The notes under the pieces: model-generated
Seen by the model: the letters and a program-made list of their open reading frames with translations, nothing else
Database searches by the model: none
What the model was told of the DNA's origin: nothing
Shown: positions 2,135 through 29,694 of the stretch, in pieces
Layout: each line of letters opens with the position of its first letter
Position numbering within the stretch: the first letter of the stretch is position 1
Program-made: the position numbers and the translations under genes
IMG/VR virus record: IMGVR_UViG_3300008113_000828
Coordinates: 1 to 31,494 of that record
Reading direction: 5' to 3' (one strand)
From: a virus
DNA length: 31,494 nt

Positions 2135-3874
2135 ATGTTATCAATCGAACAGGTTGCAGCGAGAGTTGACTCTCTTAAGCACCGCTCCGCAGAACGCGAT
2201 GGTCGTCACCAAGACGTGCTATCTGTTCGCAAGGGAAACATTTCTGAAGTTTATCCAGAGTTTTTTCCAGAAGGTGTAGACGCAAACGTAGTTGCAAACT
2301 TTATTGACATTGTTGCCCGTGACCTATCAGAGGTGATGGCACCATTGCCAGCAGTTAACTGCTCTGCTGTTAACGCTGCAAAAGACCAGGCTCGTAAGTT
2401 TGCAGATACCCGCACACGTATTGCTAGCAATTATTTTTTCCATTCAGATTTACAAGTACAGATGTATACAGGCGCAGACTGGTACATCACATTTGGTTTC
2501 GTCCCATTCATTATTGAGTTGGACGATGAAGCAGGTATACCGCGTATTCGCATAGAAAGTCCTATCGGGGCTTACCCAGAGTTTGACCGCTATGGACGCT
2601 GTATTGCCTTTGCTAAGCGTTACTCACTATCACTTGGAGAATTGGTTAGCCAGTTCCCTGAGTTTGAATACCAACTGTTGGGCCGTGATGGTTACGACCA
2701 GAACCTCAACACACAGATGGATATCATCCGTTACTACGACAAGGACCAATCAGTAATTTTTGTTCCTTCACGTAATAACTTAATCTTGTCACAGGCTAGA
2801 AACCCTATTGGCAAGATGATGGTAGTAGTAGCACGCCGTCCTTCTGTAGACGGCGAAATGCGTGGACAGTTTGATGATGTTCTTGGCATTCAGTTGCTTC
2901 GCAATCGTTTTGCATTACTTGCAATGGAAGCAGCAGAGAAGTCAGTTCAATCACCAATCGTAGTTCCAGGCGATGTACAGGAGTTTGAGTTTGGTGGGGA
3001 TGCGGTTATCCGCACTAACTCACCAGCAGGAGTGCGCCGAGTCGAACTCCCAATTCCAGCAGGTGCATTTACAGAACAGCAAGTTTTACAACAAGAACTT
3101 CGTACAGGTACACGTTATCCAGAATCTCGTACTGGAAACCTAGACGCATCAATTATCACGGGACAGGGTGTTCAGGCACTCATGGGTGGTTTTGATACTC
3201 AGGTTAAATCAGCGCAGGCTATCTTTGCCTCTGCACTAAAGAATGTTATTTCTCTTTGTTTTGAAGTTGATGAGAAGTTCTATAACTTCCAGAAGACTAT
3301 TCGTGGCGTAGATGCTGGAGCACCATACGCTGTTGACTACTTACCATCAAAGAACATTAAGGGTGACTACTCAGCAGATGTTCGTTATGGAATGTTGGCT
3401 GGTCTTAACCCAGCGCAGGGTCTTATTTTTATGTTGCAGGCCCTTGGTGGCAAGTTGATTTCAAAGGACCTCGCTCAACGCGAACTTCCATTTGGAATTA
3501 ACGTAACTCAAGAACAAGAGAAGATTGAAGTAGAAGAAATGCGTAACGCATTAGTATCTTCACTACAAGCAAGTGCACAAGCAATTCCACAGTTAATTGC
3601 TTCAGGCGGGGACCCAACTACTATCGTTAAGCAGATTGCAGAAGTTATTACACTTCGTCAGTCTGGTAAGTCTATTGAAGACGCTATTAACGAAGTATTC
3701 GCACCAGAAGAATTACCTGCTGCTGGTGCACCTACGGTTGAGCAACCGTCCCCTGCTCCCGCCGCGCCAGCAGCAGGCGCTCCTCAAGCACCAGCATCAC
3801 TTCAATCTTTATTCTCTAGCCTAAGTGCTAGTGGCAGAGCAAGTGGTGGAGCAAGAACTGTAACGCGACAATAA
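2135..3874 (+). CDS. Portal protein
   Basis: At 579 residues directly after the terminase, this is the expected portal: the dodecameric ring through which DNA enters and leaves the capsid. The sequence has the portal flavour of long helices and beta segments (NVVANFIDIVARDLSEVMAP, GADWYITFGFVPFIIELDD, ESPIGAYPEFDRYGRC). The last 60 residues or so are rich in Pro, Ala and Ser and likely disordered. AAGGATAATA before the ATG serves as ribosome binding site. No frame damage is seen, unlike the preceding terminase. The assignment relies on size, position and general character, not on a catalytic motif. Confidence 0.8.
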   Translation: MLSIEQVAARVDSLKHRSAERDGRHQDVLSVRKGNISEVYPEFFPEGVDANVVANFIDIVARDLSEVMAPLPAVNCSAVNAAKDQARKFADTRTRIASNYFFHSDLQVQMYTGADWYITFGFVPFIIELDDEAGIPRIRIESPIGAYPEFDRYGRCIAFAKRYSLSLGELVSQFPEFEYQLLGRDGYDQNLNTQMDIIRYYDKDQSVIFVPSRNNLILSQARNPIGKMMVVVARRPSVDGEMRGQFDDVLGIQLLRNRFALLAMEAAEKSVQSPIVVPGDVQEFEFGGDAVIRTNSPAGVRRVELPIPAGAFTEQQVLQQELRTGTRYPESRTGNLDASIITGQGVQALMGGFDTQVKSAQAIFASALKNVISLCFEVDEKFYNFQKTIRGVDAGAPYAVDYLPSKNIKGDYSADVRYGMLAGLNPAQGLIFMLQALGGKLISKDLAQRELPFGINVTQEQEKIEVEEMRNALVSSLQASAQAIPQLIASGGDPTTIVKQIAEVITLRQSGKSIEDAINEVFAPEELPAAGAPTVEQPSPAPAAPAAGAPQAPASLQSLFSSLSASGRASGGARTVTRQ

Positions 3875-3888
3875 TCTAAGGAGGGGAC

Positions 3889-4461
3889 ATGACGACTCTT
3901 GTAGCAATTCAAGGTAATGGTTGGGCAGCAGTTGGTTGTGATTCCCGTTCATCTGGTGATGATGGTCGTCTTATGCAACTTGCTACTCATAAGATTATTG
4001 AAAATAACGGTATTTTAATTGCAGGCTCAGGGGCAAGCCGTGGCTCAAACATTCTACAGTTTGGCTGGAAAGCACCTAAGCCACGTGCTACAGATGACTT
4101 AGATGTATTCATGACGCAGACATTTATCCCACAAATGCGTAAAGTATTTATGGATTCTGGTTATGACATGAAAGAGGACGGGGATGCAGCAGCACATGAT
4201 TCACAATTTCTTGTTGTCGTTCGTGGAGTTATTTATCCTGTCTTTGAAGATTATTCTTGGGACCGCGACACTCGCGGTATTTACTGTTCTGGCTCTGGCG
4301 CTGATATTGCTTTGGGTGCCATTGAGGCTTTTGCTGGAAGTAGAAAATCATTTACGCCAAAAGTGGCAGAACTAGATATTCGTATGGCAATTAACATTGC
4401 ATCTCGCTGGGACATTCATACTGCTGAGCCAGTCGTAGTGAAAATACAGCACGCAAAATGA
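3889..4461 (+). CDS. Ntn-hydrolase (HslV/proteasome-beta-like) peptidase, candidate prohead protease
   Basis: The 190-residue protein starts MTTLVAIQGNG. Removing Met would expose Thr as an N-terminal nucleophile, as in HslV (TTIVSVRRNG) and proteasome beta subunits. Other expected elements line up: Asp18 in GCDSR, Lys35 in LATHKII, a glycine-rich turn LIAGSGASRG, and a second CSGSGADIALGAIEAF segment matching the HslV GSG loop. Length is close to HslV (about 175). It follows the portal after AAGGAGGGGAC, where many phages encode the capsid maturation protease, and no S14, S49, S78 or U35-type protease is seen nearby. Proteolysis in head maturation is therefore inferred. Interference with host proteolysis is an alternative. 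The Ntn fold is well supported; the role is not. Confidence 0.75.
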   Translation: MTTLVAIQGNGWAAVGCDSRSSGDDGRLMQLATHKIIENNGILIAGSGASRGSNILQFGWKAPKPRATDDLDVFMTQTFIPQMRKVFMDSGYDMKEDGDAAAHDSQFLVVVRGVIYPVFEDYSWDRDTRGIYCSGSGADIALGAIEAFAGSRKSFTPKVAELDIRMAINIASRWDIHTAEPVVVKIQHAK

Positions 4462-4727
4462 GCAAAGAGTTTAGAGACAAAATAGAAGAAGCGCTAAAAA
4501 TCCTTGTAGATGAGGATGAGAAGGGGACTAACTACATCTGCACTAACTGGTTATTAATAACCGAATGGGCAGACTACGAAGGGTCCCGCTATTTACACAC
4601 AGAAGTTAGTGAAGCCATGACTCCATGGAATGCCTATGGCATGATGAAGATGGCTCAAGAATATAACAGCGAAGTGCTAGGCACTAAGGCTGAAGTTATT
4701 GATGATATGGAAGAGGATGAAGAGTGA
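4458..4727 (+). CDS. Small acidic hypothetical protein
   Basis: This 89-residue protein overlaps the Ntn-hydrolase gene by ATGA, so the two are probably translationally coupled. It is acidic, ending in a run of Asp and Glu. The core ICTNWLLITEWADYEGSRYL and MTPWNAYGMMKMAQ suggest a small compact fold of two or three strands followed by helices. I do not recognise a function. Coupling to the peptidase makes a partner, inhibitor or minor head protein reasonable guesses. Confidence 0.7.
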   Translation: MSKEFRDKIEEALKILVDEDEKGTNYICTNWLLITEWADYEGSRYLHTEVSEAMTPWNAYGMMKMAQEYNSEVLGTKAEVIDDMEEDEE

Positions 4728-5140
4728 CAACAGCACCAGAAAATCGTGGCGGTTATCGTAAACCATCTAACCCAGCACCAGCATCAGGACCTGGCGCTCT
4801 TGCACAGCGCACAGATGGCGGGCCAACACAAGCAGCAACTTACATTCCAGGTCTTCCATACGGCCAAGGTCAGCAAACATACAATAATCAAACATCAGCA
4901 CCTATGGCTGGTACTCCTTATGATGCTTTGCCTATGCAGCCAGTATCTTTAGATGCACCAACACAATATCCAGATGAGCCAGGAACTGCAGGTATTGACC
5001 GTGGTCCTGGAGGCGGTTCAGAACTTCTTGCTGGAATGCCAAAGTTAAGACCCAACCCAATGGACACACTCAAGAAAGTAAATCTCTTTGATGATTCTGG
5101 AGAAGCAGAATTAATCTTAATGAACTTCTTCAATAGTTAG
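4724..5140 (+). CDS. Pro/Gly-rich, probably disordered virion-region protein
   Basis: A 138-residue protein from a GTG start that overlaps the previous stop (GTGA), with an AAGAGGATGAAGAG purine stretch upstream. The first 105 residues are rich in Pro, Gly, Gln and Ala and should be disordered. The last 25 residues (MDTLKKVNLFDDSGEAELIL) could be a short helical binding peptide. There is no catalytic motif. It sits between the candidate maturation protease and the giant virion gene, so a minor structural or linker role is possible, but no function can be named. Confidence 0.65.
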   Translation: MTTAPENRGGYRKPSNPAPASGPGALAQRTDGGPTQAATYIPGLPYGQGQQTYNNQTSAPMAGTPYDALPMQPVSLDAPTQYPDEPGTAGIDRGPGGGSELLAGMPKLRPNPMDTLKKVNLFDDSGEAELILMNFFNS

Positions 5141-5148
5141 GAAACTAA

Positions 5149-8100
5149 ATGCGCGTTTTAAAACCTATAGTCGCAGAAGCATCTCCTAACCTTTATTCAG
5201 CGGCTACGCGAGCAAATCTTTTGCCTGAAGAGCAGAACCAACTAGAACAAATGAGTTGGGCTGTTAAGAAAAATAAAGAACTTACTCGCATGAACTCAGC
5301 AGATGCACGTAAGGCATTTGAAGGTTTAGACCCAGACGCGCAAGAGGGCTTAAAGTTTTTCTTTGGAGATGCAGACTATATGCAGGCACCACCAGATTTT
5401 GGTGACCGCGCTATTGGTGCATTGAAGTTTACCGCCAAGACAATTACTAGCCCTTTGATTGCAGTGTTTAAAGTTGCTGGTGCATACAACCGTGCGATTA
5501 ATACACCATACTTGGTGAGCCGTCAGGTAGCACAGGGTGAGAATATCTTTAGTGCTAACGTCTGGTCTGATGCTTGGAACGGCACAGATGTCTACGATAA
5601 TGGTGCTTTAAAAGAAGCAACAGACCGTTTTGGTAAAGCAAACATATACATTGCAAAGGGATTGTTAGCAGGTAAGCGCCCAGGAGAAATCCTTGAGTCC
5701 TATGGGGAACTAACTCCAGAGATTGCTAAAGCCTTTGAAGAGGCGTTTAACGAGCCAGAAAAGTTTAGGCAAGTTCTAGATGCAACTAAGTATGCTCAGG
5801 TTTCTTTAGGACGTGACGTTGCACGTATGCTAGACACCAAGCCACCAAAGAATGGTGCGCTTGCTGGTGACTACATTGACGGAACTACCAAGAACATTTC
5901 TGGTGTTATTGACTTTATCTACCAAATAGCAATTGACCCACTAACGTGGATTACTGGTGGAACAAGCAAGGCTGCAACCCGTGGTACACAGTTAGCAGAG
6001 ATGGTAACTAACGCTGCTCAGTCAGGAAATGTTGGCTATGGAGTAGCACGTGTCTTTAAAGACAAGGGTGTTATTCAACTATGGGACAAGCAACTAGGAC
6101 CAGCCATTGAAAAGTTGGCCAATGCAGAGACTGTTGCAGAGCGTGCAAGTATTCGTCGTTCAATTGGCAAACTAGCACCTGGTTACAATAGCGATGACGC
6201 TATTGTTTTTCTTGAGAAGAATAAAGTTTTTGATGCTGAGTCTGCTGAAAAGATTTTTAGCGATGCAGAAAACACATACTTGCTTTTGTCAGGTCGTGTA
6301 GATGGTATTACCTATCGCCGCAACGGTATTGCCGTTGCTCGTAACAATCGCCGCTTGAGTGATGGGTTTAACAACTACCTTGACTCTGTGTTTAACAAAA
6401 CAGTATCTAAGCAGAGCATGGAAGAGTTTAACGCCAAGGGCGAAGAAGCATTTAAGATTCTTGTTAAGTCTGGTGAAAACTCAGACAAAGCATTTAATCC
6501 AAATATTACAGACCTATTTAAGATTGAAGATGACATCAAAGGTCTGAAGCGTTTTGCGCTTAAGGCTGGTCGTCTTGCTGCTCGTAACCCAGCAGGTCAA
6601 CAGATTCTTATTGGTGATGAAGCGGTCAAGACTATTGATACTGTAAGACTTGTTGCACGACAGGTTGTTAACAGAGACATGGCAGATTTTATTGCCCAGA
6701 AGTTTTTACAGTCATCTGAAGATGAGCAGGTTGTTATTGTTCGTAATTTGTATGCCGCTGTAATGCAGCGTGCAGGTCTTGCAGGAGACCCAAATGGCGA
6801 GAAGTTAATGCACGATATTCTTAAGAGAACTCTTAATGAGCGTGCTGGCTTTACAACCACAGTTAAGACTGAAATTGATGACGCTTTTTCTGGCGTAATG
6901 AGCAAGAATGCTGTTAAGTTTGAGAATGAAACACCATTGCTTGCAGGTTCTTCTGCAATTCAGCCTTCTCAGTTAGCAGGAGCCATTGCTCCGCTACCTT
7001 ATGAGCAGATTGCTATTGAGGCAAACTCAATTCGTTCTAAAAAGAACCTTATAACTGCAGCAATGGGTACACCAAACAGCAAACTTGCTAAAGACTTTGT
7101 GGATTTTTGGTCTATCTTTACATTGTTCCCACGTCTAGGTGTGCGTTCAGCCATTGATGAAGGCTTTATGTATGCTTTAACAGCGCCTACACGTAATCTT
7201 CTTGATTATGCTAAGGGTACTGGGCGTAAATTAAACAAGTCTGGTATTGCATATACAGCATCTCGGTCCTCACAGGGACCAATTGCTGAACTACTTAGCA
7301 AAACATTTAAAAAAGACCCAGCAGATTTACTTGGCATTGAAGCACGCAATGAAATTATTGAGTCAATTGCTAAGCGTGAAGGTGTTTCTATTGCAGAGGT
7401 CAGCCACCTTAAGATTAATCAGGAGATTGCAGATAGAGCATCTATCTTTATTCGTAATCTAGACCCCGCTGAGCGTGACTACTGGACACAGGCTATGGTC
7501 TACCATCCAGATTTGCTCAACTCAATGGCACAGTCTGTTGCTGCACGTACATCTCTTGGCGGAAAACTAGACCAAGAGATTGTTGCTGAACAGTTAAACA
7601 TCAGTAAGTTGACTGAGGCATTAAACATAGTTGGTAAAGAAGCAACTGGTAAGCGTTTCCAGTTTGGTAAGTACCAAGAGATTGAAATTGATAAACTTCG
7701 TGCAGCAGATGACAACTTTGTTACCCTTGCTCACTACGATAACTGGTATATCCGCTTTGCTACTCCACGCCAGCATGGCAAGTTAGAGTTGCCAGGACCA
7801 TACCGCGTATCTCCAGCAGTTGCTTTCTTTGCAAACAATGGACTAGAAACTCCAGATGATTTGGTACGTGCAGTAGACGGAATGATGGAACGTCTTGGCA
7901 TGGCTAAGGACAATGACTTCTGGAAAGTATCAGACCAGGCACAGCCAGCGTTAAAGAAGTTCCTTTCATACTTTGGTGACACTGTTTACTGGCGACAAAA
8001 GGGTCTTGGAGACGAAGACATTGCTCGCATTTACTTTGAGCGTATGTTGATGGATATGCGTGATAACTTCCACGGTGGTCCACGTCTATACAACAAAGAT

Positions 8101-10227
8101 TTAATTGATGCTGTTAAGACAAACTACGAAAAGTTGTTGATTACTCAGGATGAAACTGGTCGTGCTATTAACGACAAGTGGATGAAGGCAGCAAACCAGA
8201 TTGATATTAATCAGTTTGCTGATTTAACAAAGGGTTTCCAGCCAACAGGTTATATTAATACCCGTGTTGAGTTTCCAGATTTTACAGATGTAGAGACAGC
8301 ATGGAAGCGTGCTGGTAACGGCATGATGGAACTAATGGACCGTCAGGTTAACGGTATCCTTCGTAGCCCTGTTGTTGGTGTTTCATACCTGCATCTTCGC
8401 AAAAAGTATGCTGGTCTTGAGCGTGAGTATGCAGATAACATTATTGCAAATGCTAAGCGTAATAATCCTGATAGTTATTCATTGCCATGGCAGGTGCAGC
8501 AACTAGAGCGCCGTGCTACCGAAATGGCAGAGAAGAAGTTCACTGAACTTGCTATGGATGAAGCAGCAGATACAGTATTAAAGTTTGCTGATAACCCAGG
8601 AATCCGCTCTAACTTTGCCGTATCTGTTCGCACAGTTGGTCGTTTCTATCGTGCAACTGAGGACTTTTATCGCCGTATTTACCGCCTCAAGGATGTATCA
8701 CCACAGGTTCTATACCGTATGCGCCTAGCGCATCTTGGCTTAAATGCTAGCGGTATGTTCTATGAGGACAGCGAAGGTGCTCCATACATCATGATGCCTA
8801 TGGATAACATTATCTTTAAGGCAACAGATACAACTATCCGTACCCTTACAGGCAATACAGATAGCGAATACAAGCAACCTTTGTTCAATGACTTTACTAT
8901 GAAGTTAACTTTGGCTAACCCTTCTTTCTCACCAGATGCAGGTTTGCCTACATTCTCTGGTCCTATTGCAGCATTAAGCGCTATTGGTATCCGCAATTTG
9001 CTAGGAACTGTTGATAGCCCTGCTATTCAAAAGGTTGGACAAGAGATTGACAACATGGCCCTTGGCCCAATTGGAGACAATATTGATATTGCTAGAGCGA
9101 TTATCCCGTCTTCTCTTCTCAAGATTTACCAAACCTTACCCGTCAACGAAAAGTCCCGACAGGAAGTAACAGCAGCACAGCAGGCAATTGCATACAATGC
9201 TGCTAATGGTAACTATCTAGAGCCTAATGCAACAGATGAAGAGAAGTATAAGTACCTAAAGAACATCCGTATTTCTGCACATAACGTGATGGTTATGCGT
9301 TCAGTACTGGGTCTTATCTCACCAGTTGCTCCAACTATGCAGGAGTCAAAGGGTGTTCCTTCTTACCTTCTAGATGTTGGTATCACAGGACTACGCAATG
9401 AGTTCTGGGATATCTATGAATCAATCTACAAGAAGTATGGGGATGATGTTCAAGACCCATACGAGCAGGCACTAGTTATCTTTACTGGTAAGTATCCAGG
9501 AAAGATTGCTTACACAGTAGCCCGTGATACTAAGCAGACTAAGGTTCTTATCTCTAAGACTAACGATATGAAGAACTGGTCTTTGGGTAACAAGAAGTTT
9601 ATTGATACCTATGGCGAAGCAGCCTACATCTTTGGCCCACATACTGGTGACTTTAATGCTGGTGTGTATAACTGGATGCAGTCATCTGGCTTGCTAGAAG
9701 ATAAGAAACTAGAGCAGTACTACGATGATGTTTTAGTTGCTGAAGATAAGCAAAAGTACTTTGATATTGCATCATGGGAAAAGGCTCAATTAGCAACAGA
9801 GACACGTATCTCTGAGCGTAAGTTCATTATTGATGCTTCAACTAATGCACGTAAGCAGTTGCTTGCTTCTAACCCACTACTGCTAGGTGCTATTACTGGT
9901 GGCGGTAATGAGATTGCTACAGAAGAGCGCATGCTACGTAGCCTAAAGCAGGTTGTTATAGACAACTCTGATGCAGTATCTACTGGAACAAAGATGAAGT
10001 TAAAGGTTGCTCTACAGGCAATGGAAGACTTTATTGCCCTTGCTAATGATGAAGAAGTAAGAGGGCTATACAACGCTTCACAGATTAAGCGTGATACACG
10101 CAATAGCGTTGAGGCACTGCTTGACCAATTGGGTAGCCAAGACTACGCAATTAAGGAAGCAACTAAGGCAATATTCAACTCAATCTTGAAGTACTATTCA
10201 AGAGACACTTATAGCGCGAGGGTATAA
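5149..10227 (+). CDS. Giant 1692-residue putative internal virion / ejection protein
   Basis: The largest gene in the window encodes an Ala- and Lys-rich, mostly helical protein without signal peptide. An early segment, DFIYQIAIDPLTWITGG (around residue 255-270), resembles a phrase I associate with large internal virion proteins of podoviruses. I see no Walker, zinc, lysozyme or protease motif that I can trust. AGGAAACTAA precedes the ATG. Its stop overlaps the next start (TAATG), and the four genes up to 13797 are chained in this way. Size and coupling fit proteins packed inside the head and ejected into the cell, like T7 gp14-16, but the position between portal and capsid is unusual for that group. 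A non-ejected core or inner-coat protein is an alternative. Confidence 0.6.
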   Translation: MRVLKPIVAEASPNLYSAATRANLLPEEQNQLEQMSWAVKKNKELTRMNSADARKAFEGLDPDAQEGLKFFFGDADYMQAPPDFGDRAIGALKFTAKTITSPLIAVFKVAGAYNRAINTPYLVSRQVAQGENIFSANVWSDAWNGTDVYDNGALKEATDRFGKANIYIAKGLLAGKRPGEILESYGELTPEIAKAFEEAFNEPEKFRQVLDATKYAQVSLGRDVARMLDTKPPKNGALAGDYIDGTTKNISGVIDFIYQIAIDPLTWITGGTSKAATRGTQLAEMVTNAAQSGNVGYGVARVFKDKGVIQLWDKQLGPAIEKLANAETVAERASIRRSIGKLAPGYNSDDAIVFLEKNKVFDAESAEKIFSDAENTYLLLSGRVDGITYRRNGIAVARNNRRLSDGFNNYLDSVFNKTVSKQSMEEFNAKGEEAFKILVKSGENSDKAFNPNITDLFKIEDDIKGLKRFALKAGRLAARNPAGQQILIGDEAVKTIDTVRLVARQVVNRDMADFIAQKFLQSSEDEQVVIVRNLYAAVMQRAGLAGDPNGEKLMHDILKRTLNERAGFTTTVKTEIDDAFSGVMSKNAVKFENETPLLAGSSAIQPSQLAGAIAPLPYEQIAIEANSIRSKKNLITAAMGTPNSKLAKDFVDFWSIFTLFPRLGVRSAIDEGFMYALTAPTRNLLDYAKGTGRKLNKSGIAYTASRSSQGPIAELLSKTFKKDPADLLGIEARNEIIESIAKREGVSIAEVSHLKINQEIADRASIFIRNLDPAERDYWTQAMVYHPDLLNSMAQSVAARTSLGGKLDQEIVAEQLNISKLTEALNIVGKEATGKRFQFGKYQEIEIDKLRAADDNFVTLAHYDNWYIRFATPRQHGKLELPGPYRVSPAVAFFANNGLETPDDLVRAVDGMMERLGMAKDNDFWKVSDQAQPALKKFLSYFGDTVYWRQKGLGDEDIARIYFERMLMDMRDNFHGGPRLYNKDLIDAVKTNYEKLLITQDETGRAINDKWMKAANQIDINQFADLTKGFQPTGYINTRVEFPDFTDVETAWKRAGNGMMELMDRQVNGILRSPVVGVSYLHLRKKYAGLEREYADNIIANAKRNNPDSYSLPWQVQQLERRATEMAEKKFTELAMDEAADTVLKFADNPGIRSNFAVSVRTVGRFYRATEDFYRRIYRLKDVSPQVLYRMRLAHLGLNASGMFYEDSEGAPYIMMPMDNIIFKATDTTIRTLTGNTDSEYKQPLFNDFTMKLTLANPSFSPDAGLPTFSGPIAALSAIGIRNLLGTVDSPAIQKVGQEIDNMALGPIGDNIDIARAIIPSSLLKIYQTLPVNEKSRQEVTAAQQAIAYNAANGNYLEPNATDEEKYKYLKNIRISAHNVMVMRSVLGLISPVAPTMQESKGVPSYLLDVGITGLRNEFWDIYESIYKKYGDDVQDPYEQALVIFTGKYPGKIAYTVARDTKQTKVLISKTNDMKNWSLGNKKFIDTYGEAAYIFGPHTGDFNAGVYNWMQSSGLLEDKKLEQYYDDVLVAEDKQKYFDIASWEKAQLATETRISERKFIIDASTNARKQLLASNPLLLGAITGGGNEIATEERMLRSLKQVVIDNSDAVSTGTKMKLKVALQAMEDFIALANDEEVRGLYNASQIKRDTRNSVEALLDQLGSQDYAIKEATKAIFNSILKYYSRDTYSARV

Positions 10228-11279
10228 TGGCAAAAATTACAATTCCTGCTCCACCAGAAGATATTCAAGAAGAGTGGACCCGCGCCCGTGTTGGTAACAA
10301 AAAGTTTGTATTTAATAAAAATACAGAAAAGTGGGAAATTGTTTCTCCTAAAGAAGTTAAAGGTTATCATATAACTTTTGCTTCTTGGGCTTCAGGTAAA
10401 AAGTCTTTTGATAGCAAAGAGCAGTTTATTAGTAGTAAAGTAGAAGACAAAACAGTTTCTAATGAAGCACAAGTTGAAAATCTTTTTGCTGGCGCTAGTA
10501 TATCTGTTGATGGTGGACAAACTGTAGTTCAAGTAATTGACCCAGAAAAGAATACGCCTTATCAAGCCTACCTTTACACAGAACCTGCCGTAAAGGAACG
10601 TCCAAAAATGACCAGCGCTCCTGGTCCATCAGAAATTAATGATTTAGGAAAGCCTTACTTTTTAGACCAAGGCTCTCAGTATGGACGTACCGATACAGTC
10701 CGTGATATGTATCTAAGCCAACTGCTAAAGCAGTATGGTAACGATAAGGCTAAGGTAGCGGCAAAGTTACGCAGTGCTGGATATCTAACTAAGTCTAAGG
10801 ATGTTACCTCAGAGGACATTCTTGTAGCCCTTGATAGAGCGGTATCTGCCTACACAGTAGAGCAGACAACAGCATATAAGTTTGAGGGTAAAAGGACTCT
10901 AGATACTTTAGATGAGTTCCTTTCCAAGAAAAAGGGTACTGGTGGCGGTACTACTAAGACCTTTAGAGATGCAACAGTCTTTGGTGAAACCCAGGCCCGT
11001 AAAGCGGTTAACGCTATGTACCAACAGTTGCAGGGTATTGATGCTACAGATGAACAGTTTGAGCAAATCTTTCCGCTTATTCAAAAAGCGCAAAGAAAAA
11101 ATCCAGATGTATCTACAACTACATACGATGCAGAAGGTCAAGCAGTAAATAGAGTAACAAAGACTGGTCTTGATACACAGCAGTTCTTATTTGAACAGTT
11201 ATCACAAACAGACGAAACAAAAGCAAATCAAGTACTTGGTTACTTTGATGTCTTTAAGAGAGTAATGGGAGTTCAGTAA
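10227..11279 (+). CDS. Putative virion protein, part of the giant-protein gene chain
   Basis: A 350-residue protein, start overlapping the giant gene's stop (TAATG). The N-terminal 110 residues have mixed strand character (NKKFVFNKNTEKWEIVS, VDGGQTVVQVIDP). The rest is charged and helical, with a Gly/Lys-rich hinge near residues 232-243 (SKKKGTGGGTTK). No enzyme motif was found. Shared operon position with the giant protein and two helical neighbours suggests an internal or head-tail-junction component. I do not recognise the family. Confidence 0.6.
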   Translation: MAKITIPAPPEDIQEEWTRARVGNKKFVFNKNTEKWEIVSPKEVKGYHITFASWASGKKSFDSKEQFISSKVEDKTVSNEAQVENLFAGASISVDGGQTVVQVIDPEKNTPYQAYLYTEPAVKERPKMTSAPGPSEINDLGKPYFLDQGSQYGRTDTVRDMYLSQLLKQYGNDKAKVAAKLRSAGYLTKSKDVTSEDILVALDRAVSAYTVEQTTAYKFEGKRTLDTLDEFLSKKKGTGGGTTKTFRDATVFGETQARKAVNAMYQQLQGIDATDEQFEQIFPLIQKAQRKNPDVSTTTYDAEGQAVNRVTKTGLDTQQFLFEQLSQTDETKANQVLGYFDVFKRVMGVQ

Positions 11280-12286
11280 TGGCAGATACAACTACAATTG
11301 CTGGTATTGCTGCTGCTTCTGGACAGACTTCAGCAGAACTTGCTAATCCAGGGTTTGCTGCAATCTTAAAGAAGGCTCAAGAAAAGTATGGTTACATTGA
11401 CACTATCTTTTCAACTGACGATGAATTAAGAGAGTTTTTAATCCGTGCTGTTAACAGTAACATGTCTGACCAGCAGTTTGAAAGCGAACTAACTAGCAAA
11501 AAGTGGTTTATCCAAAATGCTGACACAGTTAGAGCACGTGACTTCTTTCGCCGTCAGTATGAGAATCTAGTCAAAGGACTAGACCCGAATGACCCAGAGT
11601 ACGATAAGAAAATTAAGGCTGCTGCTGGAAATACAGACTATGCCCGTGGCCTACAGACTGCTAAAGATAACCTTGAGTATCAGTTAAACAATAAAGGTAT
11701 TTCTTATACAGCAGCAGAACTTAATACTTGGGCTAAAGATATTTATGACTCAGCCAATGAAAAGAACACTGCTTATATTTCTAAGTACCTTAATGCAAAG
11801 GTTAGTTATGGAACTGGCACCCCAAAGGGTGCAGTTGCTACTAATGTACAAGACTTAGATGACTATGCCAATGACTATGGTTTTCAGTTAGATAAAGACT
11901 TTACCAAGGCACAGGTATCTTCATGGATGCAACGCCTTGATAGAGGTGAAAGTCTTGACGCTATTAAGGCTGAAATTAAACAGGCTGCATTTGTTGGACA
12001 GACAGAACAAGTGCAAAATCTAATGAAGCAGGGTCTTTCTCTTCGTACAATTTATCAGCCATACGTTAATCGAATGAACTCTAAACTTCAAAAAACAAAT
12101 GCAACCATGGAAGACTCATGGATGCAACAAAATATGTTTGATGAAAAAGGAAACCTACGTCCAGTTTGGGATTTTGATAGAGCATTAATGCAACATCCAG
12201 ATTTTGCATTTACCGATGAGGCTATAGAAAAGTCAACAAGTACGGTTTTACGTATCTTGCAAGACTTTGGATTGCAGGGTAGATAA
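11279..12286 (+). CDS. Helical putative virion protein
   Basis: A 335-residue, almost wholly helical protein coupled to both neighbours through TAATG. Residues about 30-90 contain YGYIDTIFSTDDELREFLI followed by AVNSNMSDQQFESELTSKKW. I recall this kind of small repeat-like unit (ELR..L..A....F...L..T.W) from structural proteins of other actinophages. A similar helical theme occurs in the C-terminal half of the next protein, so the two may be distant relatives. There is no catalytic motif. An internal virion or ejection role is inferred from context only. Confidence 0.6.
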   Translation: MADTTTIAGIAAASGQTSAELANPGFAAILKKAQEKYGYIDTIFSTDDELREFLIRAVNSNMSDQQFESELTSKKWFIQNADTVRARDFFRRQYENLVKGLDPNDPEYDKKIKAAAGNTDYARGLQTAKDNLEYQLNNKGISYTAAELNTWAKDIYDSANEKNTAYISKYLNAKVSYGTGTPKGAVATNVQDLDDYANDYGFQLDKDFTKAQVSSWMQRLDRGESLDAIKAEIKQAAFVGQTEQVQNLMKQGLSLRTIYQPYVNRMNSKLQKTNATMEDSWMQQNMFDEKGNLRPVWDFDRALMQHPDFAFTDEAIEKSTSTVLRILQDFGLQGR

Positions 12287-13797
12287 TGGCTAGATTAGAT
12301 AGAATGATGGTAGATGGTGGTGGAATACCAGCATCATATATTCCTGAAGATTCAACAGCAAAAAATGCTGTGTCAAATGCTCCCGTAACTCAACCTGTTG
12401 AAACGGTAGACGCAAGAATTGCTCTTAGTAAACTGCAATCAGGTCGTCCTTTAACAGATGATGAAAAGCGTCAACTAGGTTTGCCAGTTGCTTCTACACC
12501 TGCTGTAATACCTACTGAAATAAAGTGGGTAAAAGCAAAAACTATTAATACAGCAAATGGTCCAGTAGATGTAGATGCAAATGGAGTTGCAGCAGATGGG
12601 TCAAGACCAGTTGCAGTAACTACACAAACTGGCAATAAAATCCCATCGGGATTTACACCAGGACCTTTTCCTAAAGAATTAGAACAATTTTTTGGTTCAT
12701 CTGAAGGTGTATTGGGTTATAGAATTGAAACTGTTACAGATAAAAATGGTAGAACATACAATCAATTATCTGTAGCAACTGGACCTAATTCATCTCAAAC
12801 ATATGGTGCATCTTTTGTAAAAGACGCTAATGGAAAATATGTAACATATTCTCCACAAGGTGGAAATAATAATAACAATGGTAATAATAATGCTTCTGAT
12901 AGCAATGCAGCAGCAACTAAGTATGCTGCAGATTTAGCAGCAGCATCAGAAGCAGCAGCAGTTAAGTCACAAAGACTATCTGCTTGGGCTGTTTTAAAAG
13001 CAGAGTTTGACAAGTATGGTCTAGGTACATTGGCTGATGCTGTTAAAGAAATGATTATTAATGGTACTCCATCAGCGCAAGCAACTATGATTTTACGTGA
13101 ACGTCCAGAGTATAAGGCCCGCTTTGCTGGCAATGAAGCCCGTAGAACTGCTGGGCTAAATGTCTACGATGAAGGTACATACTTAGATTTAGAAAATACA
13201 ATGGCTGAAATCTTTACAGCCTATGGTCAAAAGGCTCTTATGGGTACTACCCGCGAACAACAGCAGGCTACCTTTGCCAAGTTTATTGGCAACACTATTG
13301 CACCAACTGAGTTAAAGCGCAGAATGGATATTGCTTCTACTCTTTCTAAGTCAGATAATAATACTATTAAAGCAATTAAAGAACTTTATCCTATGATTAA
13401 CGATAGTGATATTTTCTCATACTTCTTGAATCCAACAGAAACTTTGCCTAAGTTAGAAACTAAGGCTCAGGCTGCATCAATTGGTGGAGCATTCTTAGCG
13501 CAAGGACTCAAGATTAATTCAGCATCAATGGAAGAGTATGCAGCCCTTGGTATTAGCCGAGAACAAGCACAACTTGGTGCTGCTCAAATTGCTAGCGTTC
13601 TTCCACGTGCTGCTCAGTTACGTGCTTACGAGAATGGCACATATACACAACAACAGGCTGAAGATGTTTACTTACGTCAGTCAGCAACTGCTAAAAAGGA
13701 ACTTGAAGACCTTGCTAAGTTAGAGACTGGCCGCATGAGCGGTGCATCTGGAACTAGCAAAGTATCTCTTAAGTCAGCAAGCAGAAACATAATCTAA
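12286..13797 (+). CDS. Putative virion protein with Asn-rich linker
   Basis: A 503-residue protein and the last of the chain of four coupled genes. The N-terminal 200 residues are extended and rich in Thr, Pro and Val, ending in a run of Asn and Gly (NNNNNGNN) and an Ala-rich helix. The C-terminal 290 residues are helical (WAVLKAEFDKYGLGTLADAV, IAPTELKRRMDIASTL). The Asn run looks like a flexible linker between two domains. The basic tail (VSLKSASRNII) could contact DNA. The function is unknown. The next gene lies beyond a structured 118-base gap, so this protein ends the translational chain. Confidence 0.6.
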   Translation: MARLDRMMVDGGGIPASYIPEDSTAKNAVSNAPVTQPVETVDARIALSKLQSGRPLTDDEKRQLGLPVASTPAVIPTEIKWVKAKTINTANGPVDVDANGVAADGSRPVAVTTQTGNKIPSGFTPGPFPKELEQFFGSSEGVLGYRIETVTDKNGRTYNQLSVATGPNSSQTYGASFVKDANGKYVTYSPQGGNNNNNGNNNASDSNAAATKYAADLAAASEAAAVKSQRLSAWAVLKAEFDKYGLGTLADAVKEMIINGTPSAQATMILRERPEYKARFAGNEARRTAGLNVYDEGTYLDLENTMAEIFTAYGQKALMGTTREQQQATFAKFIGNTIAPTELKRRMDIASTLSKSDNNTIKAIKELYPMINDSDIFSYFLNPTETLPKLETKAQAASIGGAFLAQGLKINSASMEEYAALGISREQAQLGAAQIASVLPRAAQLRAYENGTYTQQQAEDVYLRQSATAKKELEDLAKLETGRMSGASGTSKVSLKSASRNII

Positions 13798-13915: not shown

Positions 13916-14389
13916 ATGAGCAACAACTACTGGGATGACGAAGACGATGAACTAGATACCGACCAGAACCTTGGTGGCGATGACTTAGTAAAAAAGTTAC
14001 GCAAAGCCAAGCGAGCAGATGAGAAGCGTATCAAGGAACTTACTGAGCAACTTGAGGGTTTAACCAAGGTGCAGCGTGAGCGTACAGTCAAAGAAGTCCT
14101 AGAACAAAAGGGAGTCAATCCTAAAGCAGCACGTATTATCCTAAAAGACTTAGATGATGTTAACGAGGAGACAGTTATGAACTGGCTCGATGATAACGGA
14201 GACTTGTTTGGATATACACGTGATGAACAAGAACAGCGTATTACTGAGGTAGACCGTGCGACATTACGTCAGCAGGACATTATTACTCAGAACGCTGGGA
14301 CTCCATCACGGGCAGAAGATTTAGAAGCACGTTTAGGCGGAGAGTTTAACTCTCAAGAAGAACTTATTGCTTTCCTTCGCTCGCAATAA
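13916..14389 (+). CDS. Scaffolding protein
   Basis: A 157-residue, highly charged protein directly before the major capsid gene, the usual place for a scaffold. The N-terminus is very acidic (DDEDDELDTDQN). Residues about 24-60 form a probable coiled coil (LVKKLRKAKRADEKRIKEL). Helical segments with acid patches follow, ending in FNSQEELIAFLRSQ. Scaffolds guide capsid assembly and are then expelled or degraded, which would give the Ntn-hydrolase at 3889 a natural substrate. GAAGGGTGGG precedes the ATG. The identity is based on position, charge and coiled-coil prediction. Confidence 0.75.
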   Translation: MSNNYWDDEDDELDTDQNLGGDDLVKKLRKAKRADEKRIKELTEQLEGLTKVQRERTVKEVLEQKGVNPKAARIILKDLDDVNEETVMNWLDDNGDLFGYTRDEQEQRITEVDRATLRQQDIITQNAGTPSRAEDLEARLGGEFNSQEELIAFLRSQ

Positions 14390-14423: not shown

Positions 14424-15377
14424 ATGGCTAATGCCTATACATCAACAGGTTCCTCTACTCTTGGAGGTACAGTAGGTGCTGCAGGTCTAGTACAGAAGGC
14501 GTATGACCGTCTACTAGAGTTCGCTCTCCGCTCAGAACCCCTAATTCGTTCTGTCGCAGATAAGCGTCCTGCTAAGCAAGCAATCCCAGGTTCAACAGTA
14601 GTTCTACAGAAGTACGTTGACCTTTCAGCGGCAACAACCGCATTGACAGAAGATGCTGACCCAGATTCAGTAGCACTGTCAACACCAACATCAGTTACTA
14701 TCACTCTTAACGAGTATGGTAACTCAGTACTTGTTACACGCGCTTTGGAACTCTTCAGCCTTGCTGATGTAGACCCAGCAATTGCTAACATTATTGCATT
14801 TAACCTTGCAGATTCTATTGACTCAGTAGCAATGACAACATTGCGTGGCGGTTCAAACGTAATCTACGCAGGTGCAACAGCAACTTCAACAGCAACAATC
14901 ACAGCAGCAGCAACACTATCTTCAGCAAACATCCGCAAGGCTGTTGCTAAGTTGCGTGCTGGTAAGGCAGTTGCTCGTAAGGGTTCACTATACTGGTGTG
15001 GTATCCACCCAGAAGTTTCACACGACCTACGTGCTGAGACAGGTTCAGCAGGATGGCTTCTTCCAAATCAGTACGGTTCTTCACAGGACCGCATCTGGTC
15101 TGGTGAGATTGGAACATACGAAGGTGCATACTTCGTAGAGTCATCTCGTCTATACAACGCTACAGACGGAGCATCATCTGCTCGTAACTACCGCACAATC
15201 ATTGCTGGACAACAGGCAATGGCTGAAGCAGTGGCAGAAGAGCCACACGTAGTAATCGGACCAGTAGTTGACAAGTTAATGCGTCATCGCCCAATGGGTT
15301 GGTACGGCGTACTTGGCTTTGCTCGCTACCGCGAAGAGGCACTATACCGAATCGAATCAGGTTCATCAATCGCTTAG
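14424..15377 (+). CDS. Major capsid protein, N4-gp56-like family
   Basis: A 317-residue shell protein. The order of signature segments fits the N4-gp56/HK97-fold group: an early helix (AYDRLLEFALRSEPLIRSVA), a strand pair with a Thr-rich turn (PGSTVVLQKYVDLSAATTAL), TEDADPDS, then TVTITLNEYGNSVLVTR-like strands (residues about 85-105), and ADSIDSVAMTTLRGGSNVIY. The C-terminus carries DKLMRHRPMGWYGVLGFARY. It follows the scaffold with its own strong ribosome site and should be the most abundant late protein. No separate decoration protein is obvious nearby. Confidence 0.85.
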   Translation: MANAYTSTGSSTLGGTVGAAGLVQKAYDRLLEFALRSEPLIRSVADKRPAKQAIPGSTVVLQKYVDLSAATTALTEDADPDSVALSTPTSVTITLNEYGNSVLVTRALELFSLADVDPAIANIIAFNLADSIDSVAMTTLRGGSNVIYAGATATSTATITAAATLSSANIRKAVAKLRAGKAVARKGSLYWCGIHPEVSHDLRAETGSAGWLLPNQYGSSQDRIWSGEIGTYEGAYFVESSRLYNATDGASSARNYRTIIAGQQAMAEAVAEEPHVVIGPVVDKLMRHRPMGWYGVLGFARYREEALYRIESGSSIA

Positions 15378-27082: not shown

Positions 27083-27294
27083 TGAACACACCCCAATGGG
27101 CAGGCTTAATTGTATCTATTATTGCAATTGTATCTGCATTTGCAGGTGCTGTTAGATGGTTGGTTAAGCACTATTTGTATGAACTAAAGCCTAACTCTGG
27201 TTCAAGTCTAAAAGATTCTGTTATTCGTTTAGAAGAAAAAGTAGAAATCCTGTATCAGATGATGCTACAGAGGGGAAGAGATGAACAACGATGA
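27082..27294 (+). CDS. Holin-like single-span membrane protein
   Basis: A 70-residue protein with one clear N-terminal membrane segment (WAGLIVSIIAIVSAFAGAV, about residues 6-27) followed by basic residues and a short coiled coil (LKDSVIRLEEKVEILYQMML). The start overlaps the tail protein's stop and the stop overlaps the endolysin start (ATGA). Position and topology fit a holin or antiholin that times lysis. The family is not identified. Confidence 0.7.
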   Translation: MNTPQWAGLIVSIIAIVSAFAGAVRWLVKHYLYELKPNSGSSLKDSVIRLEEKVEILYQMMLQRGRDEQR

Positions 27295-27791
27295 AGCCTG
27301 TTGCCAAGAAAGCCACACCTGCCGCTATTGCTGTCCTGCGTCAAGCCACAGCGATTTCACCATTGCGTATGAAAGCCAGCGATGGACTTCTGCCGTCGAA
27401 CGCTCATCTGAAACAGAGTCCAACCAGCGACCATAATACTGGACTTGCTGTTGACCTGACGCACGACCCTAAGAATGGAATTGATTGTGCTGACATTTTT
27501 GAAAAACTTAAAGAAGATAAGCGTGTTAAGTATCTTATCTTTAAGGGCAAGATATGGTCTAAAGAAAAGGCTAAGCAAGGAAACAGACAATACAGTGGGA
27601 GTAATCCTCATAATAAGCATCTACATATTTCTATTAATGCCGCTTGTTCTGCAGATACTTCTCCGTGGTTCTGGTGGTTAAACCAACCAAAGATTGTTAG
27701 TCAGGTAGTAGCAAAGGTGCTACCAGTACCTGCGAAGAAAGCATATAAGACTGAAGTTTGTACCTGCTGCAAAGTGCACGGGACAAAGTAA
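27291..27791 (+). CDS. Endolysin, M15-type zinc peptidase
   Basis: A 166-residue cell-wall peptidase. SDHNTGLAVDL gives His48 and Asp55, and NPHNKHLHISI gives His110 and His112: the H-x6-D and H-x-H zinc set of D-Ala-D-Ala carboxypeptidase and L-Ala-D-Glu peptidase relatives (M15 or hedgehog-type fold). It would cut peptidoglycan cross-link peptides. There is no signal peptide, so release needs the holin. The C-terminus EVCTCCKVHGTK carries three Cys and a His, perhaps a small metal site or surface anchor. Holin-like genes lie on both sides. Confidence 0.85.
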   Translation: MKPVAKKATPAAIAVLRQATAISPLRMKASDGLLPSNAHLKQSPTSDHNTGLAVDLTHDPKNGIDCADIFEKLKEDKRVKYLIFKGKIWSKEKAKQGNRQYSGSNPHNKHLHISINAACSADTSPWFWWLNQPKIVSQVVAKVLPVPAKKAYKTEVCTCCKVHGTK

Positions 27792-28076: not shown

Positions 28077-28457
28077 TCATTTACGCATGTAGTTAAGTAT
28101 ATCTTCAACCTTAATAAGGTAGCCCTTACTAGGGTTCGGAGGTATGTTGCAGGTAATGGCTCTTCCCCTTGCCGTTACTACTTGCTTTAGTACCTCCGTT
28201 GGTACTAACAGGGTTGCCCCCTCCAGAACAAAGGCCCAATACTGAGCCTTCGTGCTGGACAATCCTGATAAATACCAATTCTCGTTGTTGTGTGACCAGC
28301 ATACTGTCTCGATATATAAGTTGCCAGTCTCTTTCCATTTTAAATCTGTCTTTACTTCTACTGTAGTACCACCTGTTAACAGTTGTTCTACTAATCCTTC
28401 ACCTTCTTGACCTACCTTTAGGTCTAAGTCAAAGTCAGATAACTTTGCTGTACTCAT
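28077..28457 (-). CDS. PD-(D/E)XK-type nuclease-like protein
   Basis: A 126-residue protein. FDLDLKVGQEGEGLVEQLL supplies an early acidic helix; TVEVKTD gives the E-x-K core (E34, K36). GNLYIE and LSSTKAQYWAFVL follow, as in small phage-encoded PD-(D/E)XK proteins. A metal-dependent DNA nuclease is expected: recombination exonuclease, host-DNA degradation or Holliday-junction cleavage. It starts ATG after GGGAGATAC, overlaps the WhiB gene by 23 bases and ends against the terminator. Specificity cannot be read from sequence. Confidence 0.7.
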   Translation of the reverse strand: MSTAKLSDFDLDLKVGQEGEGLVEQLLTGGTTVEVKTDLKWKETGNLYIETVCWSHNNENWYLSGLSSTKAQYWAFVLEGATLLVPTEVLKQVVTARGRAITCNIPPNPSKGYLIKVEDILNYMRK

Positions 28458-28725
28458 GTATCTCCCATGCTAGACCGACTGGTGTAGGAATAATATTTAG
28501 TTTCTTTCTTAACTGACTTCTGTGTCTAGGTGTAGTGCCTGCCCAGTATCCTTGCACTGAATTATGTAGCGCATAATCAAAACACTGCTGCTTTACTGGA
28601 CATCCAGAGCAAATCTTTTTAAGTAGATTTGCTTCTCTATAACCTGGCTCGCTATCTTCGCAGAACCACATCTCTGTATTAGTTCCTAAGCAGGCTGGTG
28701 TATCTGTCCATTCTGGGTAACTCAC
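28435..28725 (-). CDS. whiB: WhiB-family iron-sulfur transcription regulator
   Basis: A 96-residue protein with the four cluster-binding cysteines of WhiB proteins: C12, then C39-x2-C42-x5-C48 in ICSGCPVKQQCFDYAL. The turn motif usually GVWGG appears as GYWAGTT, followed by a basic tail (PRHRSQLRKKL) that binds DNA. C22 is extra. WhiB proteins are essentially restricted to Actinobacteria and their phages, so this is the best host marker here. Known family members bind the principal sigma factor's region 4. It starts GTG with AGGAGG seven bases upstream, right after the FmdB-type gene. Confidence 0.93.
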   Translation of the reverse strand: MSYPEWTDTPACLGTNTEMWFCEDSEPGYREANLLKKICSGCPVKQQCFDYALHNSVQGYWAGTTPRHRSQLRKKLNIIPTPVGLAWEIHEYSKVI

Positions 28726-28887: not shown

Positions 28888-29132
28888 TAGATAATCCCCT
28901 CGTTTTGTGGGTAAGGGAGTGTGACCATTGAGCCACAGTTAACGCACTCTCCATCAAGGAAATAAAAGCATAGTTCACCTTGGTCAAATGCAACAAGCGC
29001 ATGAAATACATCCCCTCCACATACGCAAACATCTCCAATAGGTTCTCCTCGCAAGTCCATAGCGTGCGAGTAATCCGTTGGGTGTAGTAACTCTCGGATT
29101 TCTTTGACATTATCATTCTCCTGATTCGTCAT
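28887..29132 (-). CDS. Cys-rich hypothetical protein
   Basis: An 81-residue protein. GDVCVCGGDVFHALVAF and FLDGECVNCGSM contain two CxC/CxxC pairs separated by about 25 residues, which suggests a zinc ribbon or rubredoxin-like knuckle. It begins at ATG 29132 (GTG 29135 is one codon earlier), overlapping the sigma-like gene, and is coupled to the FmdB-type gene by TAATG. No function is known. It forms a trio of metal-binding proteins with FmdB and WhiB. Confidence 0.7.
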   Translation of the reverse strand: MTNQENDNVKEIRELLHPTDYSHAMDLRGEPIGDVCVCGGDVFHALVAFDQGELCFYFLDGECVNCGSMVTLPYPQNEGII

Positions 29133-29694
29133 CACTGATAGCCCGCTGTACTTTCATGCGGGCACCATCAGGTGTTGTCTTTAGTTCTTCACCCAACTTA
29201 CTCCACTCGCAAGATTCTGTACTAAAACGAGTCTTAAGAATAAATTGTTTTGCCTCTGACAATCTGTAGTAGGCTGATGCTATATCTGACCTGAGCACTA
29301 GCCAGTTGTTGGTGTCTGTGCTTTCACCCTTACTGAACTTAAAGTTTAGGTCTTTAATCTTAGATGGGATTTCATAGGACTCTGCAATGATTGATGGCAG
29401 GAATGCCTCAATAACTGAAGCGTCATAGTAGTAAAGGTCAAGCAACTCATAGCCAACCGTCCGTGCCTTTTCGCGTTCACAATAAGTAATTGCTTTATTA
29501 CGAAGAGACTTGGCTATGAGTTTGTCTTTGTCTTTTTGTGGCAGGGCTGACCATTCTTTGTATTTAACTGGATGGGTAACAAACCATATCCACAATACTT
29601 GTTGGATATCTTGCTGGTCTGTCATAGGGTATTTGCGTTGGTATTCGGCAGCAATTGCCACAACCATCTGCTCATACTCATCTAGGTAGTCCAC
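29113..29694 (-). CDS. Sigma-70-like / DNA-binding regulator (weak similarity)
   Basis: A 193-residue protein with two helical halves. Residues about 25-110 (DQQDIQQVLWIWF, then AKSLRNKAITYCEREKARTV) are reminiscent of sigma region 2. Residues about 140-188 (RLSEAKQFILKTRFS, then WSKLGEELKTTPDGARMKVQ) look like a region 4 helix-turn-helix. An ECF-type or phage sigma would redirect host RNA polymerase. The region 2 match is poor, so it may be a divergent sigma or a simpler regulator. GTG start after GAGGG. WhiB, a sigma partner in actinobacteria, is encoded three genes downstream. Confidence 0.6.
   Translation of the reverse strand: MDYLDEYEQMVVAIAAEYQRKYPMTDQQDIQQVLWIWFVTHPVKYKEWSALPQKDKDKLIAKSLRNKAITYCEREKARTVGYELLDLYYYDASVIEAFLPSIIAESYEIPSKIKDLNFKFSKGESTDTNNWLVLRSDIASAYYRLSEAKQFILKTRFSTESCEWSKLGEELKTTPDGARMKVQRAISDDESGE

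Follow-up and report, generated by a model that had tools for sequence, protein, structure and literature searches.

Introduction

Proteasome homologues borne by phages, PPH and AAH, are already known, and in several records they are annotated as HslV-like. A 2021 survey that described both found no AAH in actinobacterial phages, no AAA+ partners co-occurring and no gene context hinting at their function, and its list has no HslV for Actinobacteria (PMC8665760). The same survey linked the long acidic pore loop of BPH to independence from an unfoldase and included a protein ligase, connectase, in the proteasome-like family (PMC8665760).

Here we describe a gene of this kind, for an Ntn-hydrolase, in a 31,494-nucleotide viral sequence (IMG/VR record IMGVR_UViG_3300008113_000828), which as a whole we refer to as the window. 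An initial annotation, made from the letters of the window, had assigned the product to the position of the capsid maturation protease, with an acidic scaffold as its substrate. We propose a revised reading, in which the gene probably encodes an exchangeable accessory proteasome-like threonine hydrolase of freshwater actinophage, held in a slot between the portal and structural genes.

Source phage and gene neighbourhood

The source phage is a freshwater actinophage, which fits the WhiB-like and sigma-factor-like genes in the window (Table 1). Its nearest cultured relatives, with a portal ~70-74% and a major capsid protein (MCP) ~82-84% identical to those of the window, are phages E7 and F5 of the freshwater actinobacterium 'Ca. 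Planktophila' (PMC10202952); the Streptomyces Beephvirinae come next (portal ~41%, MCP ~52%). In both E7 and F5 this slot holds an Ntn enzyme that shares only 27% identity with that of the window. The MCPs of E7 and F5 are ~400 aa long, with an insertion near residue 250 (E7: L088 17567-18757) that is absent from the 317-aa MCP of the window. Relative to contigs L001 and L002, which are otherwise 100% identical to the window over its first 3000 bases, 148 bases are missing from the large-terminase gene at 930/931; this gap, either an assembly error or a deletion, splits the terminase into overlapping ORFs (388-969 and 933-2126), which form a single ORF in at least one relative (G002).

The Ntn ORF opens with an ATG at 3889, 14 nt downstream of the portal stop and behind a strong Shine-Dalgarno sequence, and the gene does lie right after the portal, as first described. 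A Shine-Dalgarno-like motif is found upstream of the slot homologues in 228/228 cases. The gene is packed tightly between the portal and structural genes and is therefore probably expressed late. Further along the window, 5149-10227 encodes a 1692-aa protein with no family match, a candidate internal virion protein; in many relatives whose portals are 70-77% identical, this protein shares only 23-45% identity. The product of 27291-27791 contains a SDHNTGLAVD...HLHIS pattern, is M15-type peptidase-like with no Pfam match, and may be the endolysin.

Table 1. Positions, in the window, of the Ntn-hydrolase gene, its predicted active-site codons and the genes discussed with it.
Feature	Position	Strand	Basis
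Portal protein, bordering the variable slot on the left	2135..3874	+	PHROG 104, 4.4e-25
Shine-Dalgarno AGGAGG ahead of the Ntn ATG	3879..3884	+	Sequence; AAGGAGG in full
Ntn-hydrolase gene, proteasome/HslV family, 190 aa	3889..4461	+	Family match, profile, AlphaFold2, fold search
Thr2 codon, predicted nucleophile once Met is removed	3892..3894	+	Thr 228/229, Ser 1/229
Asp18 (Asp17 of the mature enzyme)	3940..3942	+	229/229
Lys35, catalytic lysine equivalent to Lys33	3991..3993	+	229/229
Gly48, equivalent to oxyanion-hole Gly47	4030..4032	+	226/229
Gly135-Ser136-Gly137 loop	4291..4299	+	Both Gly 229/229
89-aa acidic protein, ATGA overlap with the Ntn stop	4458..4727	+	
138-aa protein, bordering the slot on the right	4724..5140	+	PHROG 8200, function not assigned
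Putative scaffolding protein, taken as substrate in the initial annotation	13916..14389	+	Position directly before the capsid gene
MCP, N4-gp56 family	14424..15377	+	TIGR04387, 125 bits (cut-off 60)
WhiB-like regulator, actinophage marker	28435..28725	-	PHROG 472, 1.7e-17
Sigma-factor-like protein, also found in Planktophila phages E7 and F5	29113..29694	-	PHROG 354 'sigma-K factor', 1e-9; PMC10202952

Family, fold and active site

By sequence and predicted structure, the protein is a proteasome/HslV-type Ntn-hydrolase of group I (HslV/BPH/AAH-type). It matches PHROG 1040 (peptidase HslV family) over its full length at 1.5e-20. Taken as a single sequence it scores 18.4 bits (0.0017) against Pfam Proteasome, under the cut-off of 22.4, and 13.2 bits against the HslV equivalog, far under the cut-off of 157.75. 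For a profile of nine members of the phage family, the matches are B. subtilis HslV (1.4e-15), BPH (1.3e-12) and proteasome beta (~1e-7), which argue that the likeness is not due to chance. The AlphaFold2 model, computed from 40 sequences comprising the window protein and its relatives on viral contigs, has a pLDDT of 89.5 and a pTM of 0.87, and its top PDB folds in Foldseek are BPH (5ovs, 2.8e-11) and HslV (1.2e-10 to 1e-8), with proteasome beta subunits also among the best matches. The Ntn fold that had been supposed from the letters is thus borne out by structure prediction and comparison with HslV. Furthermore, what characterises group I of the proteasome-like enzymes is present, namely the beta-sandwich fold, in the model, and the N-terminal Thr/Ser, Asp17, Lys33 and Gly47.

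We detected 235 homologues and counted residues over 229 of them. Thr2, Asp18, Lys35 and the GSG loop, on which the first assignment had been based, are near-invariant across this set, and position 136 of the G-x-G loop is S or T in nearly all. The start codon stands at profile position 1 in 235/235 detected homologues, so that removal of the methionine would expose Thr1; methionine aminopeptidase characteristically removes Met before Thr. The gene is under purifying selection (dN/dS 0.09-0.19 in 11 pairs), and the homologous stretch at window residues 90-105 is an acidic loop, with a median charge of -3. Judged from its conserved residues, the enzyme is very likely active. Families of this fold do include inactive members, such as the proteasome alpha subunit, and an inactive protein that only binds would have such a precedent, but essentially invariant active-site residues over 229 sequences together with purifying selection make this extremely improbable.

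A variable slot after the portal

Where the gene is present its place is fixed, as it directly follows the portal in 66/66 W-type and at least 147 E-type carrier loci with complete context. Between the portal and the 138-aa gene the content of the slot varies: Ntn may stand with the 89-aa gene or with no such gene in recognisable form, the 89-aa gene may occur by itself, or a different, acidic protein of 74-79 aa takes their place. The last of these fills the slot in 8/9 of the Ntn-less loci considered below, is also found in L204, and is never found together with Ntn. It stands just after the portal, in place of Ntn, in L202, L206, L208, L231, L240 and others. A quick tree of portals implies at least 11 changes of slot type or presence, four of them of presence alone. 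In L016 and similar loci the Ntn is 93% identical to that of the window, beside a portal of 76% identity and, after the 89-aa gene, a gene of ~41%, a pattern that speaks for exchange. The slot enzymes fall into three lineages. These may go back to one origin or to separate acquisitions of the slot genes; the tree is compatible with both, and the AU test does not reject a single clade (p 0.47). One alignment, A1, was too diverse for use in locus searches.

The 89-aa gene bears on the possibility that the Ntn protein is a specific processing enzyme or a connectase-like ligase devoted to one partner, such as this neighbour. The family includes connectase (PMC8665760), and the 89-aa gene, whose start overlaps the Ntn stop, is inherited together with Ntn in many loci. 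It accompanies many, but not all, Ntn-bearing relatives, with no 89-aa-family neighbour detected beside Ntn in L051, L061 and L078, and once it stands without Ntn (L184); moreover, the model has no connectase-type helical insertion between strands 3 and 4. We therefore consider a dedicated ligase or processing enzyme quite unlikely.

Head maturation

Had the enzyme matured the head, packaged in the prohead and removing the acidic scaffold, it should be present wherever its capsid system is. Among 66 portal-seeded loci with complete context, Ntn is present in 57 and absent in nine, the portals of the nine Ntn-less relatives being 84-87% identical, and profile searches of the whole records of these nine loci found no Ntn elsewhere. 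(At L177 and L199 Ntn had seemed absent beside the portal, but its open frame starts within the portal gene.) Compared with the Ntn-bearing G010, the Ntn-less G002, whose record of 39.9 kb is about full length, and G003 show 97% identity in the MCP and 84-85% in the scaffold-like protein; likewise, Ntn-less G001 compared with Ntn-bearing G012 and G011 gives 92-93% for the MCP and 76-81% for the scaffold-like protein. Such near-identical heads without the gene point to an exchangeable extra gene rather than a head-maturing enzyme. In Streptomyces Beephvirinae-type loci with complete portal context Ntn is absent in 71/71, and three complete Beephvirinae genomes contain no PHROG 1040 match anywhere. 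Furthermore, among carriers the Ntn is 27-34% identical to that of the window, beside scaffold-like proteins of 63-68% and MCPs of 76-93%, a divergence not expected of a protease whose substrate is conserved. The putative scaffold itself is assigned from its place, its composition and a weak PHROG 648 match (0.02), and its likeness to the Streptomyces phage counterpart is remote (hhalign E 5.7e-5, probability 66).

Two observations do favour a maturation protease, the fixed place after the portal in all carrier loci with complete context and, as the initial annotation had correctly noted, the lack of any other recognised prohead protease among the window ORFs scanned. Nor was a substitute recognised in the Ntn-less G002, where ten proteins, mostly without counterparts in relatives, gave no protease in Pfam and seven gave no protease match among PHROGs. 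The capsid class offers an explanation. In phage N4, residues 1-46 of the capsid protein are described in the mature capsid (PMC11768535), and for an N4-type MCP that keeps these residues the missing prohead protease leaves no vacancy to be filled; by analogy, absence of a prohead protease would be normal in the N4-gp56 capsid class. Residues 24-273 of the 317-aa window MCP align to 11-277 of TIGR04387, an alignment in which a large additional domain at the N-terminus would not fit; by sequence, the MCP has no match among solved structures. Between TerL and the portal, the Ntn-less G002 encodes a 457-aa protein with no family match (L344 16516-17889).

On presence and absence together with capsid identity, we reject the role in head maturation that had been claimed for the Ntn enzyme, and consider it highly improbable. 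A facultative version, in which the enzyme would trim scaffold or internal proteins in the prohead of carriers and relatives manage without it, is very unlikely. That the protein is an accessory hydrolase and not an obligate head protease can be held with good confidence.

Homologues outside the slot

Homologues in other phages lie in an early or nucleotide-metabolism context and not beside head genes. The homologue is found near WhiB in DSL-LC01, at the right end in Arthrobacter phage Hum25, beside thyX/mazG in Pumpernickel, beside thymidylate synthase/DHFR in Geobacillus E3, beside dCMP deaminase in XacN1, beside DNA ligase in Tunturi_5 and, in VpV262, on the opposite strand before the late region. 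With this distribution, the Ntn-less Beephvirinae and an MCP of the N4-gp56 type, the supposed departure from the known protease types, head maturation by a threonine protease, is not supported.

The same distribution bears on a virion-associated protein that would enter with the internal proteins and have its targets among host proteins as infection begins. The gene does lie between the portal and large genes of internal-protein size (5149-13797), in the same packed run, but the protein has no targeting feature and its homologues elsewhere stand among early genes, where packaging is not needed. An ejected enzyme is thus unlikely.

Weak cellular relatives are mostly on Rhizobium/Sinorhizobium plasmids, with two on Streptomyces plasmids, and two peptide-pattern scans of bacterial genome contigs found no Ntn relatives. 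A distant relative was seen in the nif cluster of Sinorhizobium fredii pSfreGR64b (L365 4001-4546), between nifQ and iron-sulfur assembly/nifS genes, and proteins like it are encoded on many rhizobial plasmids.

A model for the slot enzyme

We propose a model for the accessory hydrolase that most reasonably fits these observations. The enzyme would be made with the late genes, and removal of the initiator methionine would expose Thr1. Its subunits may then self-assemble into an HslV/BPH-like ring and work with no dedicated HslU, an unfoldase-free mode for which the acidic loop and the likeness to BPH both count. Late in infection, such a ring may degrade peptides or unfolded proteins of the host or of defence systems, turnover of host or defence proteins being a tentative guess at the substrate. 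The activity would give a dispensable advantage in growth, and head assembly would not depend on it. Against this model, the presence of Ntn in 57/66 loci suits a role tied to the late genes better than random cargo.

What is added here to the known phage-borne homologues is more than 200 related loci with Ntn in a fixed gain-and-loss slot of freshwater phages. Two carriers, E7 and F5, are cultured and have an actinobacterial host, where the 2021 survey had found no AAH-bearing phage. A claimed new capsid protease thereby becomes a testable case of a phage-borne proteasome-like enzyme, and the presence of the slot enzyme in cultured E7 and F5 makes its function accessible to deletion and virion proteomics.

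Comparison with known systems

The prohead proteases of the S14, S49, S78 and U35 types lie near the portal in many phages, as does the window Ntn, but their folds are different. The members of PHROG 1040 elsewhere are found in early or metabolic regions, whereas that of the window stands beside the portal. HslV shares with the window protein the fold, the N-terminal Thr, the Asp, the Lys and the GSG loop, although the window protein stays under the HslV equivalog cut-off. PPH is likewise a phage-borne group I homologue, but at ~140 aa it lacks helix H2, whereas the 190-aa window protein has two helices in its model (50-58 and 71-89). The best structural matches are to BPH (5ovs, 5ovt and 5ovu; TM 0.72-0.76), and the window loop is acidic at the expected pore position, yet identity is 18-21%. 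Finally, AAH is, like the window protein, a compact, phage-borne member of group I with catalytic Thr/Asp/Lys; the plasmid relatives found here are only ~20-32% identical, and it is the window enzyme that has a fixed slot in actinobacterial phages.
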